This document shows positions 27,959-35,570 of a DNA stretch of 36,023 nucleotides, one piece after another. Positions within the stretch are counted from its first letter, which is position 1. Each line of letters begins with the position of its first letter. The position numbers and the translations under genes are program-made. The notes beneath the pieces are model-generated. The model was not told the DNA's origin, did not search any database, and was given only the letters and a program-made list of their open reading frames with translations. The stretch is from Candidatus Saccharimonadota bacterium (GTDB taxonomy: Bacteria > Patescibacteriota > Saccharimonadia > Saccharimonadales > UBA10212). The stretch spans positions 1 to 36,023 of the forward strand of contig JAICWR010000005.1 of the NCBI GenBank assembly GCA_025934715.1, written 5' to 3'.

Positions 27959-27986
27959 ATAAGGTGTTAATTTGATTGGGTTTACC

Positions 27987-28098
27987 CAATTTTGCGTATC
28001 GGGGCGCTAGCGACCGTACGCAAAATTGAGAGGAGAAGGCGAGGCCGTAAGTGAGCGAATTCAGTAGCTCACGGAAGCCGTTGCCTCGACTCCGACGA
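27987..28098 (+). ncRNA. Conserved structured pre-tRNA leader element, copy A
   Basis: A 112-nt element ending exactly where tRNA-Lys begins. Its 5' part is a 12-bp hairpin, CAATTTTGCGTA (27987-27998) with TACGCAAAATTG (28017-28028), around the 18-nt loop TCGGGGCGCTAGCGACCG. The 3' part can form a stacked stem: GGAG (28032-28035) with CTCC (28090-28093), CGAGGC with GCCTCG, and GTGAGC (28051-28056) with GCTCAC. The last 8 nt, TCCGACGA, join the tRNA directly. A second copy with the same fold, identical loop and compensatory changes lies before the CAT tRNA (34933-35050). I do not recognise it as a known RNA family. Whether it is cleaved, retained or regulatory is unknown. Confidence 0.75.
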
Positions 28099-28175
28099 GG
28101 GCCCATAGCTCAGTTGGTTAGAGCAGCGGCCTTTTAAGCCGCGTGTCGTGGGTTCGAATCCCACTGGGCCCTCCA
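28099..28175 (+). tRNA. tRNA-Lys (anticodon TTT)
   Basis: A full cloverleaf of 77 nt with encoded CCA. The acceptor stem is GGGCCCA with TGGGCCC, the D stem GCTC/GAGC, and the anticodon stem GCGGC/GCCGC with loop CTTTTAA (anticodon TTT). The T arm is GTGGG-TTCGAAT-CCCAC. The 5' end joins the structured leader without spacer; an intrinsic terminator follows. Confidence 0.96.
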
Positions 28176-31910: not shown

Positions 31911-32483
31911 ATGATTGCGACGCTCAAAGGAAAGGTGGCCGAAAAAACGCTGGACCTTGTGGTTGTTGAGTGCGGCGGTATCGGTTATGGCGTGTATGTG
32001 CCGTTTGAGGACTTCGGTGCGCTAGAAGAAAGCGGTGAAGCCAAGCTGTATATCTATGAACATATCCGCGAGAACGCCCACGATTTGTTTGGTTTCCGTG
32101 ACCCCCAGTCCAAGGCACTTTTTGAACTGCTGTTGAGCGTCAATGGCGTCGGCCCGCGCATGGCCTTATCTATACTCAGTATTGCGACTTTATCGCATGT
32201 ACGCCAGGCGATCGCTGCCGGCGACGTGAAATTCATCACCCAAGCCGTTGGAGTAGGCAAACGAGTGGCCGAACGGGTGGTGGTGGACCTGAAAGACAAG
32301 GTTGGCCTGCCAGCCGATGAATCAGCCACCGATTTTTTAGCAGCGCCCGCCAACCCCAACGACGAAGCCCTCCAAGGCTTAGTGGCTCTCGGCTTTTCCG
32401 TCCAGGACGCCGCAACCGCCCTGAAAAAAGTCGATACAAAATTGCCGCCCGAAGACCGCATAAAAGCCGCCCTCAAAAGCTAA
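31911..32483 (+). CDS. ruvA: Holliday junction DNA helicase RuvA
   Basis: A 190-residue protein. Domain I is an OB fold (MIATLKGKVAEKTLD, GYGVYVPFEDF), domain II two helix-hairpin-helices (LLSVNGVGPRMALSILS and AVGVGKRVAERVVVDLKDKV in part), and domain III the flexible C-terminal helix bundle (ALQGLVALGFSVQDAATALKKV). RuvA tetramers hold the junction for RuvB. It lies 4 nt after ruvC. No ruvB is next to it in this window. Confidence 0.96.
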   Translation: MIATLKGKVAEKTLDLVVVECGGIGYGVYVPFEDFGALEESGEAKLYIYEHIRENAHDLFGFRDPQSKALFELLLSVNGVGPRMALSILSIATLSHVRQAIAAGDVKFITQAVGVGKRVAERVVVDLKDKVGLPADESATDFLAAPANPNDEALQGLVALGFSVQDAATALKKVDTKLPPEDRIKAALKS

Positions 32484-32489
32484 TTTTAG

Positions 32490-32495
32490 TAGAAT
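32490..32495 (+). promoter_or_regulatory. -10 box of the gene at 32502
   Basis: TAGAAT ends 6 nt before the ATG at 32502. Confidence 0.45.
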
Positions 32496-32501
32496 AGAGA
32501 C

Positions 32502-33320
32502 ATGCCAGAGCCATCACAGCACGAGCCATCCATTAGTGAAAAGGCTGATGAAAGACACGGTCCGCAAGAAGAGCGCTTATTTGCTATTGTGCGGGGGGCT
32601 TACGATGAAGAAGGGCACGGCACGGTGGTACCCTGGAACGAACAACAGTCTGGCTCAACGGAGGATCGCGCGACCACACAAGATGAGCTGGATACACGCA
32701 GAAGGGAAGCCAGCCTGACTGCCATAAGAGAGTCAAGAAAACACGAATTAAGATTGGTACGAGACCGTTTTGAACGACGATATACAACCTGGATACCTTT
32801 TTCAGAGGCCGAAATGACGTTAGCCGTTACAGGACTGACAACTAAAGCAAATAAGATTTTGAGTAAAATCGGTCCTAATACTCTTTCAGTAACTGAGAAA
32901 TACTATCAAGCTGCCAAGAACTACCGCAACCAGGCGGCAGTTCACCATGCAAATCTTATGGATGCCAAAATTTTTGAGCAAGACCTTAAACCCTCACTGG
33001 ATAAAGTCCGCCAAACACCCGAGATAAGGGGAGCCTTGGCTGATTATCTATACGCCAAGCAATCTTTGGAGAGACTGAGATGGGGGCAGAAAAGGGGTAA
33101 AAGGAAAAGCCAGGGGCGGATGCCGCGCGAGCGGGAATACCAAGAGATTTTTGACAGTATGGACTTTAAAAGCGAAGAGGCCCTGATTGCCATATGGGAA
33201 ATGGCGGTCCAATGCGCCCACTCGAGGCAGGAGTACTGGCAGATAGAGATAGAAAACACTGAGAATAGCAACGAGTTAGTCAGAGCTATAAAAACTGAAG
33301 ATCAAACTCACAGAACGTGA
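32502..33320 (+). CDS. Hydrophilic helical protein, unknown function
   Basis: A 272-residue charged protein. The N-terminal 75 residues are disordered-looking (Glu, Gln, Ser, Thr). The rest is rich in Arg, Lys and Glu and probably helical, with basic stretches (WGQKRGKRKSQGR) and Tyr/Trp-rich helices (VTEKYYQAAKNYRNQ, SRQEYWQIEIE). No membrane segment, signal peptide or catalytic motif. The coding sequence is AT-richer than neighbours. It sits between ruvA and dus and overlaps dus by 4 nt (GTGA). Not a recognised family; a nucleic-acid-binding role is only a guess from its basicity. Confidence 0.7.
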   Translation: MPEPSQHEPSISEKADERHGPQEERLFAIVRGAYDEEGHGTVVPWNEQQSGSTEDRATTQDELDTRRREASLTAIRESRKHELRLVRDRFERRYTTWIPFSEAEMTLAVTGLTTKANKILSKIGPNTLSVTEKYYQAAKNYRNQAAVHHANLMDAKIFEQDLKPSLDKVRQTPEIRGALADYLYAKQSLERLRWGQKRGKRKSQGRMPREREYQEIFDSMDFKSEEALIAIWEMAVQCAHSRQEYWQIEIENTENSNELVRAIKTEDQTHRT

Positions 33321-34273
33321 ATTTATTTGAAAATTTGCCCAAGCCGTTTTTTGTGTTGGCGCCGATGGACGATGTCACGGACACTGTTTTCCGCCAGATT
33401 GTAGCTGACTGCGCCAAGCCTGATTTATCATTCACGGAATTCGTAAACGTCGATGGCTTGCAAAGCCCGGGCCGGGCGCACCTGCTGCCCAAACTGAGAA
33501 TTTCGGATAAAGAAAAGCCGGTCATAGCCCAGCTATGGGGCTTAAAACCGGAAAATTTCTATAAAACAGCCAAAGAATTAGCCAGCATGGGCTTTGCAGG
33601 GGTGGACCTGAATATGGGCTGTCCGGTGAAGACTGTGGTTAAAAATGGGGCTTGCGCGGCGCTGATAAATAACAGGGAATTAGCCACGGAAATAATTGAG
33701 GCCGCCAGGGAAGGAGCAGGGGGCTCCCTGCCCGTCTCAGTTAAAACCCGGGTAGGATTTACAACAGTCGACATGGGTTGGCTGGAGTTCCTGTTATCAA
33801 AAAAACTTAACATGTTAAGTATTCATGGCCGGACTGCCAAGCAAATGTCTAAAGTCCCGGCCGACTGGGATTTGATCGGCCGGGCCGTGGGGCTGCGCGA
33901 TTCCCTGTCCCCTGCCACGTTGATTGTTGGCAATGGCGACGTTTTGAGCCGCATACAAGGCGAAGAACTGGCTAAGAAACACGGCTTGGACGGTATCATG
34001 ATTGGCCGCGGAATTTTCCATGACCCTTTTATTTTTTCTCAAAGCAGACCGTGGGAAGGATGGGGTGAAACCAAACGCCTACAGTTATTTATCAAACATA
34101 TAGAACTATTCCTAAAGACTTATGGAGGATCCGAACGCAAATTCGAGCCGCTTAGGAAATTCTGCAAAACTTATATTAATGGTTTTGAGGGTGCCGCCGA
34201 ACTGCGGGCTGAGTTCATGCTGGCCAAAAGCGCCGCAGAGGCTCTGGAACTGCTCCGCGGCCGGCGGCGTTAA
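33317..34273 (+). CDS. dus: tRNA-dihydrouridine synthase (Dus)
   Basis: A 318-residue flavoprotein with a TIM barrel. It starts from GTG 33317, overlapping the upstream stop (GTGA). Motifs: FFVLAPMDDVTDTVFR (FMN binding), the NMGCP catalytic cysteine, VKTRVGF, SIHGRTAKQMSKVPADWD (in part) and VGNGDV, GIMIGRGIFHDPFIF. It reduces uridine to dihydrouridine in the tRNA D-loop. Length is normal. A local palindrome near 33810-33825 (ACTTAACATGTTAAGT) lies in its coding sequence and seems incidental. Confidence 0.94.
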   Translation: MNLFENLPKPFFVLAPMDDVTDTVFRQIVADCAKPDLSFTEFVNVDGLQSPGRAHLLPKLRISDKEKPVIAQLWGLKPENFYKTAKELASMGFAGVDLNMGCPVKTVVKNGACAALINNRELATEIIEAAREGAGGSLPVSVKTRVGFTTVDMGWLEFLLSKKLNMLSIHGRTAKQMSKVPADWDLIGRAVGLRDSLSPATLIVGNGDVLSRIQGEELAKKHGLDGIMIGRGIFHDPFIFSQSRPWEGWGETKRLQLFIKHIELFLKTYGGSERKFEPLRKFCKTYINGFEGAAELRAEFMLAKSAAEALELLRGRRR

Positions 34274-34304
34274 CAAGTTGTAAAGACTTTTACGTTCCGC
34301 CCGG

Positions 34305-34348
34305 TAAAATCTCACTGTATGGCGCGGCCCTATAGCCCATTATGGTAA
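34305..34348 (+). promoter_or_regulatory. -10 box and possible 9-codon leader peptide before the SPW gene
   Basis: TAAAAT (34305-34310) lies 8 nt before an ATG at 34319 that opens a frame MARPYSPLW stopping at 34348. The SPW gene starts 24 nt later with its own ribosome site. It might be a leaderless mini-ORF or just the 5' leader of the gene at 34373. Confidence 0.3.
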
Positions 34349-34372
34349 TAGGCACTAATCGAGGAGGTCAAC

Positions 34373-34798
34373 ATGAGAAGCACCAGAAACAGGGTGGAGG
34401 AAAGGGACGCGCGGTACGCTGACAGGCGGCCGGTCAGGCCGGAATATACGGATGCGACTGAGGCCAGGTCGCTGGCCGGTATAAATTTCATTTTGGGAAT
34501 CTGGCTGATTATTTCGCCGTGGATCCTAAATTACTTCACAACCGAGGCCAGGTGGGACCAGTTTGCGACCGGAATCGCCATAGCGGTTTTGGCGTTGATA
34601 CGTTACGCCATACCACGGGCCAGCTGGGCTAGCTGGTTGGCCGGACTGGCGGGAATTTGGATGATAATCGCGCCTTTCATTCTGAATTACACTAAAACAG
34701 CCGCTTTTTGGAACGAGATAATAGTAGGTATTGTGGTGGCTGTACTGGCCTTTGCTAATGTCCAGACCTATAGCCGTTACAACCGTACCCCTGCCTGA
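34373..34798 (+). CDS. SPW repeat membrane protein
   Basis: A 141-residue protein. The first 30 residues are charged (Arg/Glu-rich), then four membrane segments form two repeats. Each repeat has a paired helix with the S/A-P-[WF] turn: LGIWLIISPWILNYF and AGIWMIIAPFILNYT. This is the SPW repeat (PF03779-like) arrangement, function unknown. It has one of the strongest ribosome sites here (GAGGAGGTCA, 34361-34370) rather than a leaderless start. A bidirectional terminator follows. Confidence 0.85.
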   Translation: MRSTRNRVEERDARYADRRPVRPEYTDATEARSLAGINFILGIWLIISPWILNYFTTEARWDQFATGIAIAVLALIRYAIPRASWASWLAGLAGIWMIIAPFILNYTKTAAFWNEIIVGIVVAVLAFANVQTYSRYNRTPA

Positions 34799-34820
34799 CA
34801 ATAAGAAAAGCTGGGCGCTA

Positions 34821-34857
34821 AAAAAATCGTCCCATTGATTACGGTGGGACGGTTTTT
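34821..34857. terminator. Bidirectional terminator between the SPW gene and the CAT tRNA
   Basis: CGTCCCA (34828-34834) and TGGGACG (34845-34851) form a 7-bp stem flanked by an A run on the left and a T run on the right, so it can stop transcription of both converging units. Confidence 0.85.
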
Positions 34858-34932
34858 GGTGGGGAAGGCAGGATTTGAACCTGCGACCAATCGGTTATGA
34901 GCCGACTGCTCTAACCACTGAGCTACTTCCCC
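34857..34932 (-). tRNA. tRNA with CAT anticodon (Ile-lysidine type or elongator Met)
   Basis: A 76-nt cloverleaf with encoded CCA. The acceptor stem is GGGGAAG with CTTCCCC, discriminator A. The anticodon stem GTCGG/CCGAT has loop CTCATAA (anticodon CAT), and the T arm is GCAGG-TTCAAAT-CCTGC. The first pair is G-C, so it is not the initiator. The D-loop and variable-loop text (GTGGTTAGAGCAG and TTGGTCGC) is closer to bacterial tRNA-Ile2, which is read as isoleucine after lysidine modification, but elongator Met cannot be excluded. It directly follows structured leader copy B. Confidence 0.92.
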
Positions 34933-35050
34933 TCGTCGGAGCCGGGGCAATGGCCTCCATAAGCGCACTAACGTTTGCTTATTACAGCCTCGGCCCGTCT
35001 CCTCCTCTCAATTTTGCGCACGGTCGCTAGCGCCCCGATGCACAAAATTG
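34933..35050 (-). ncRNA. Conserved structured pre-tRNA leader element, copy B
   Basis: A 118-nt element with the same order as copy A. The 12-bp hairpin is CAATTTTGTGCA (35050-35039) with TGCGCAAAATTG (35020-35009), around the identical 18-nt loop TCGGGGCGCTAGCGACCG (35038-35021). The 3' part again closes with GGAG/CTCC. The innermost helix is ATAAGC/GCTTAT in place of GTGAGC/GCTCAC, so pairs are kept while bases change. The middle helix is weaker than in copy A (CGGG/CCCG plus a mismatch). It ends TCCGACGA joined to the tRNA without spacer. An extended -10 promoter lies 17 nt upstream. Confidence 0.75.
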
Positions 35051-35067
35051 CCAAAGCTACAGGGGTA

Positions 35068-35099
35068 ATTATATCAGCTACAAAGATAAACTATATAAT
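35068..35099. promoter_or_regulatory. Divergent promoters: tRNA-CAT unit and FtsB-like gene
   Basis: Minus strand TGATATAAT, an extended -10 (TATAAT at 35073-35068), would start transcription near 35061, so leader copy B is transcribed with the tRNA. Plus strand TATAAT (35094-35099) is 9 nt from the ATG at 35109. Confidence 0.6.
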
Positions 35100-35108
35100 A
35101 GATATTAG

Positions 35109-35570
35109 ATGTTTGATGAAATAAAAAGTCTCCTAAACAATAAACGATCTAAGCAGCTAACCGATGTGCGCAACATCGGCTTATACATTTTTGGCATCGT
35201 GGTGCTGGCGATCGCCTGGAGCGGCGCCAAAACTGTCCAGAACAACTACGAACTGCAAAAACAGATCAACCAGCTTAAACAAGAGAACGTTGTGCTGGGC
35301 CTTAACAACGACAACACCGGCCTCCAGAACGGATTTTATAAGACCAATGAATACCTTGACCTGTCTGCCAGACAGGATTTAGGCTTGGCCGCGCCGGGCG
35401 AAAAAGTCTTGTTGGTGCCAAAATCGGTGGCGATGAAGTACGTCGATCCGGCATTAGAAACCAGCCAAAACTCCTCGGGTATATCACCGGCGGACACCCG
35501 CCCAAAATATATCAGGCACCTTGAGGATTGGCGTGATTTTTTGCTAGGCCGCAAGTTATTCAGTGACTAA
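35109..35570 (+). CDS. FtsB/DivIC-like septum formation initiator protein
   Basis: A 153-residue protein. The N-terminus is cytoplasmic, with one membrane segment at about 18-36, then a short coiled coil (NNYELQKQINQLKQENVVLG). A segment typical of FtsB/DivIC follows: YKTNEYLDLSARQDLGLAAPGEKVLLVP resembles the usual YxxxEYIExxAR-xLGLxxPGE pattern (the longer motif spans about residues 76-103). These proteins bridge FtsL and FtsQ-type partners in the divisome. The C-terminal 40 residues are extra. Promoter spacing implies a leaderless mRNA. Confidence 0.8.
   Translation: MFDEIKSLLNNKRSKQLTDVRNIGLYIFGIVVLAIAWSGAKTVQNNYELQKQINQLKQENVVLGLNNDNTGLQNGFYKTNEYLDLSARQDLGLAAPGEKVLLVPKSVAMKYVDPALETSQNSSGISPADTRPKYIRHLEDWRDFLLGRKLFSD

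Follow-up and report, generated by a model that had tools for sequence, protein, structure and literature searches.

A structured, probably mobile repeat at tRNA and tmRNA gene boundaries in Saccharibacteria and other Patescibacteria

The DNA analysed here (the window, 36,023 nt) is contig 22 of a 714 kb (0.71 Mb) Saccharibacteria bin. A tRNA-Lys gene and a tRNA-Met gene, which lie on opposite strands of the window, are each preceded by a copy of the same folded element, and the features of the two loci are as follows.

27986..28098, plus strand: element copy A, the 5′ leader insert of tRNA-Lys (R1 match, 96.5 bits; element-free orthologous tRNA in G002)
27987-28028, plus strand: hairpin 1 of copy A
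28029-28034, plus strand: AGAGGA of copy A
28035-28093, plus strand: stem 2 of copy A
28094-28098, plus strand: GACGA of copy A
28099..28175, plus strand: tRNA-Lys (TTT), called by ARAGORN
35068..35076, minus strand: extended −10 promoter TGATATAAT of the tRNA-Met gene (from sequence; conserved at the element-free site on contig C2)
34933..35051, minus strand: element copy B, the 5′ leader insert of tRNA-Met (R1 covariance model, 112.5 bits; covarying structure)
35009..35050, minus strand: hairpin 1 of copy B, CAATTTTG...CAAAATTG (fold and covariation)
35003..35008, minus strand: conserved linker AGAGGA of copy B (kept in alignment A2)
34938..35002, minus strand: stem 2 of copy B, GGAG...CTCC with two internal loops (fold and covariation)
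34933..34937, minus strand: GACGA, the 3′ end of copy B, joined to tRNA position +1 (GACG invariant in A2)
34857..34932, minus strand: tRNA-Met (CAT), called by ARAGORN and Rfam

The two copies share one layout, copy A measuring 113 nt and copy B, whose 5′ boundary lies at 35050/35051, measuring 119 nt. These coordinates bear out a good part of a preliminary description of copy B, which placed it on the minus strand from 35050 to 34933 with the tRNA-Met (CAT) gene starting at the next base (34932), reported for both copies a GGAG/CTCC closing stem that only GACGA separates from the tRNA, and gave copy B 6 nt more than copy A. That the element is structured, has zero spacing to the tRNA and occurs more than once is likewise borne out by the coordinates and by the wider family. 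The extended −10 promoter that was named is present upstream of copy B (35076-35068, minus strand), where it would set the transcript start near 35060, and the same promoter precedes the orthologous tRNA without the element on contig C2; the element is probably transcribed from the tRNA promoter.

The bin contains about 46 tRNAs and about 13 copies of the element. Nine copies precede tRNAs, namely Lys-TTT (copy A), Met-CAT (copy B), a second Met-CAT (Met2), Pro-TGG, Pro-GGG, Val-CAC, Ser-GCT, Gln and an initiator-like tRNA on contig C2, and no isotype preference is apparent. A further copy (1130-1247) lies directly before the tmRNA (731-1129), both on the minus strand of locus L055; one copy lies antisense at a tRNA 3′ end on contig C25, and one at the 3′ terminus of a gene on contig C13 that reads as htrA-like. 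In three genomes (loci L054, L158 and L159) a copy lies where an htrA-like gene on the opposite strand ends, and in two of the three the htrA stop codon falls inside it. Contig C2 (L076, 8441 nt) repeats the ruvA, dus, tRNA-Met and septum-gene neighbourhood of window positions 31911-35561 at 75-80% identity and represents either a duplication or a contig from a relative binned with this genome, so that its copy is counted with caution. The preliminary description had raised the prospect that most tRNAs lack the element and that the copies are simple duplicates of one another; the first part is true, since about 37 of the 46 tRNAs are without it, but the copies are diverged and covarying. The most similar pair in this genome is 87% identical, and the lack of nearly identical fresh copies there counts against the mobile-repeat reading developed below; one pair at 96% was found in genome G085.

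The element is built from hairpin 1, the linker (G)AGAGGA, stem 2 and a terminal GACG(A), and its length across the family ranges from about 85 to 145 nt. In an alignment of 19 main-class copies (alignment A2), which was folded with RNAalifold, 96.8% of cells are paired, compared with 87.4% when partners are shuffled, and double-sided changes occur at 20 of the 35 pairs. In a larger alignment of 89 copies from many families, which was fitted to the structure and so leans towards it, 93.8% of cells pair, all 35 pairs show double changes, and sliding the partners by 1-3 columns reduces pairing to 44% or less. The fold is therefore far beyond chance. The foot of hairpin 1, the (G)AGAGGA linker and GACG are constant across copies. 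Stem 2 falls into at least three sequence classes, and its closing pair beside the constant parts is mostly G-C (58 of 89) or A-U (22 of 89). The hairpin 1 loop, said earlier not to have changed at all, is common to both window copies but differs in the Gln, Ser and antisense copies, and relatives carry several further variants; the proposed selection on the loop sequence itself is not supported, as loops vary among copies even in the same genome. Mean identity of hairpin 1 is only slightly higher within genomes (0.69) than between them (0.64). Copies from three genomes at the htrA site share 70-76% identity and show four to five compensated pairs and no broken ones, in a comparison that used each pair's consensus fold and hence favours intact pairs. 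Unless fresh copies have replaced them, these old ones do not have the look of dead repeats in decay. No Rfam ribozyme matched the element, and a likeness of its internal loops, judged by eye, to k-turns, the hammerhead core and group II domain V was dropped.

Matches to the covariance model were obtained in 15 of 16 genomes of the family, in at least 41 of 119 genomes of the order and, with strict filters at E ≤ 1e-5, in at least 26 of 380 genomes of the phylum; the named relatives with the motif are Candidatus Saccharibacteria. A match in a cyanobacterial MAG (L193), where the rest of the element is missing, looks like a chance match. The inspected loci were picked by the score of a model that contains the GACG end and no tRNA sequence, and 72 of 80 copies sampled from the family and order, besides the first set, abut a tRNA or tmRNA. 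Sixty of the 80 end between −2 and +3 nt from an intact tRNA, spread over many unrelated isotypes, seven are followed directly by a tRNA 5′ fragment, three abut a tmRNA (L157 according to Rfam, the other two judged by sequence likeness), two lie antisense against a tRNA 3′ end, and the other eight lie elsewhere. Of 21 loci inspected in remote families of the phylum, 19 lie directly against tRNA sequence, 13 in the sense orientation (two of these not called by ARAGORN) and six antisense. The abutment is beyond chance, and in every inspected copy that meets a tRNA it follows one rule: the GACG end makes the contact, at either end of the gene, and none meets the tRNA by the opposite end. The contact is exact: the 3′ end of the element meets the mature 5′ end of a tRNA or tmRNA or, for antisense copies, the 3′ end of a tRNA. 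The two remaining remote loci (L274 and L275, from two genomes of one remote family) carry element-like structures that end 0-1 nt before start codons of genes whose products we take to be ribosomal proteins L27 and S8.

Several loci of other kinds were seen among these matches. At L115, L120, L138, L160 and L162 the element precedes a truncated tRNA 5′ part, an insert of ~25-150 nt and then a complete tRNA, mostly of the same kind, which appears to be another sort of insertion or duplication in tRNA genes. The 16S-23S rRNA spacer at L199 (genome G334) holds two copies, of which one precedes tRNA-Ala and the other a degenerate tRNA remnant.

Close relatives possess orthologous tRNAs free of the element for copies A and B and for the Met2, Pro-TGG and Pro-GGG copies. 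The Pro-GGG site reads ...TAGCTTTTA|element|tRNA here and ...CAGCTTTGA|tRNA in G008; the Met2 site reads ...CTGTTCTTTC|element|tRNA here and ...CTGTTCTTTTTAC|tRNA in G002; and the copy B site reads ...CCCCTGTAGCTTTG|element|tRNA here and ...CCTCTGTTGCC|tRNA on contig C2. Between filled and unfilled sites the promoter and the native short leader are kept, the insert sits within 1-2 nt of tRNA position +1, and no target duplication is seen at the compared pairs. Synteny past the promoter is clear for copies A, B and Pro-GGG, and Pro-TGG was compared by the tRNA alone, its flanking genes being different. The tmRNA locus of the family is filled in six genomes (one copy degenerate), unfilled in five and occupied in three by a different long structured leader, which amounts to turnover at one fixed position. 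Precise deletion is an alternative at any single site; insertion would be the more likely event because the copies are scattered over tRNAs and genomes. The converse, that the tRNA rather than the element was inserted, is contradicted by loci in which promoter and tRNA occur together with no element. What was found is clean presence and absence at orthologous tRNAs at a fixed distance, the pattern expected of a mobile element targeted to tRNA ends.

The covarying fold, the spread over families, the exact abutment and the presence or absence at orthologous sites, all of which are observed, point to a structured mobile repeat that has inserted at tRNA and tmRNA gene boundaries in Saccharibacteria and other Patescibacteria, and we put the probability of this reading at roughly 0.6. 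Its main rival is a role of the leader RNA in the host, by which the tRNA promoter would drive a structured small RNA, RNase P would form its 3′ end, and gene conversion or duplication would spread it among tRNA genes. Every examined copy keeps the fold, orthologous pairs carry compensated changes and no broken pairs, and copies lie downstream of tRNA or tmRNA promoters, all of which would suit a beneficial RNA; the compensated pairs in old copies would indeed also fit host function. Antisense copies at tRNA 3′ ends are nevertheless a misfit for a dedicated small RNA, some copies have no evident promoter, and presence varies at the same tRNA between close relatives, so that we consider a host role unlikely, if still worth weighing.

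The zero spacing invites another explanation, a cis-acting leader that alters the processing or expression of the tRNA, tmRNA or mRNA downstream, as an unusual RNase P substrate or through self-cleavage, and the remote element-like structures just before the L27 and S8 start codons are also in its favour. The suggestion that rnpB might be unusual or absent did not hold, since the bin encodes an ordinary type A RNA on contig C26 (RF00010 match, 251 bits), and RNase P cleavage at +1 therefore needs nothing unusual. With an ordinary rnpB, about 37 of 46 tRNAs lacking the element and orthologous tRNAs of close relatives doing without it, the unusual RNase P substrate of the preliminary description is unsupported. 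Most tRNAs lack such a leader and those that have it show no apparent preference of isotype, orthologs work in its absence, and antisense copies would be unable to act in this manner; we therefore regard a cis-acting function as improbable.

On the mobile-repeat reading, transcription of the element from a tRNA promoter would yield a leader of about 128 nt, cleavage by ordinary RNase P would release leader RNA and tRNA alike, and the fold would be kept since the RNA, or a folded single strand, is what is copied or recognised. The element might then spread via RNA, with a reverse transcriptase joining the 3′ end of the RNase P-released leader to mature RNA ends, in the manner of a bacterial SINE with RNase P as the maker of the 3′ end; this route we hold to be unlikely. 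Its targets would be 5′ ends of tRNA, tmRNA and leaderless mRNA in the sense orientation and tRNA CCA ends in antisense. End-to-end template switching, in which the enzyme passes from a mature RNA 5′ end or from the CCA terminus of a tRNA to the free leader's 3′ end, would account for both types of junction, sense at the 5′ end and antisense at the tRNA 3′ end, yet the step is speculation that lacks its enzyme and is unlikely. Of the 16 family genomes, three carry the reverse transcriptase domain (RVT_1, PF00078) and 13, among them this one, lack it; the enzyme may come from an outside source. The Y1 transposase (Y1_Tnp, PF01797) is absent from this genome and from the four carriers G001, G007, G009 and G015, which have 5-12 copies, and its presence bears no relation to copy number. 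The absence of a linked transposase and of RVT_1 counts against the mobile-repeat reading.

The nearest described bacterial repeats are the CGTC-tagged REPs, which are dispersed, palindromic single hairpins of 20-40 bp, found mostly downstream of ORFs, with no dedicated transposase known (Di Nocera et al., 2013; PMC3733652). The element resembles them in being dispersed and palindromic, in carrying CGTC at one end (GACG on the sense strand) and in having no dedicated transposase known, and differs in its length of about 118 nt, its two covarying stems and its position at tRNA ends. It might accordingly be asked whether it is a REP-like repeat moved as folded single-stranded DNA by a Y1 (HUH) transposase. 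In the reverse complement (T)CGTC comes first and a palindrome next, an arrangement shared with CGTC-tagged REPs (PMC3733652), and the lack of target duplication would agree with such an origin, although a four-letter tag beside a stem is in itself weak evidence. A REP is a single palindrome, whereas the window copies, at 113-119 nt, have two separate stems and the element is three to six times REP length; the left flank carries no conserved tetranucleotide; and the five genomes named above have no Y1 gene. We judge this origin very improbable.

Other known systems share single features with the element. Like MITEs it is short, non-coding, folded and dispersed, but it has neither terminal inverted repeats (its ends are (C)CAATTTTG and GACGA) nor target duplication. 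Ty3 and the Dictyostelium TRE elements are eukaryotic tRNA-targeting retrotransposons that code for a reverse transcriptase and an integrase of their own, are directed to polymerase III factors and duplicate their target sites. The element would be, as they are, mobile DNA addressed to the 5′ side of a tRNA gene; unlike them it has no ORF and makes no duplication, and its junction is the mature RNA end. Group I introns sit in tRNA genes of the same bacteria, and the L165 tRNA carries both; the element, in contrast to them, is unrecognised by Rfam and lies outside the mature tRNA. At L165 (520-742), one of the seven copies with a tRNA 5′ fragment, and at L068 (1586-2203), from the first set, the 5′ half of a tRNA-Met comes right after the element, and downstream of it lies a group I intron (Rfam RF00028) that apparently interrupts the anticodon region. 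Rfam 15 gave no match to the element at gathering score, where only the tRNAs matched, and the best weak match had E = 1.1. A description of such an element was not found in the open-access papers searched, and the repeat family is apparently undescribed.

If the mobile-repeat reading is correct, many Patescibacteria carry a structured repeat that uses mature tRNA ends as its address, and the question becomes what reads these ends, at the DNA or the RNA level, in a genome of 0.7 Mb; the filled and unfilled sites provide a ready test set. Many tRNA and tmRNA precursors of Patescibacteria would then probably start with long, folded leaders that go unnoticed in tRNA annotation, and the leader may also exist as a free RNA.

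Another structured sequence also recurs; its core is GCACAAGGAAG...GTATA..ATAC, and it was observed at L235, L239 and L243 (before tmRNA), L066 (about 1120-1230), L148, L175, L192 and L213. It is not recognised by Rfam, and it occurs alone in several genomes and directly before the tmRNA in three. Genome G003 has two tmRNA genes in one bin (L236 on contig C20 and L251 on contig C8), reflecting either a real duplicate or a co-binned relative.
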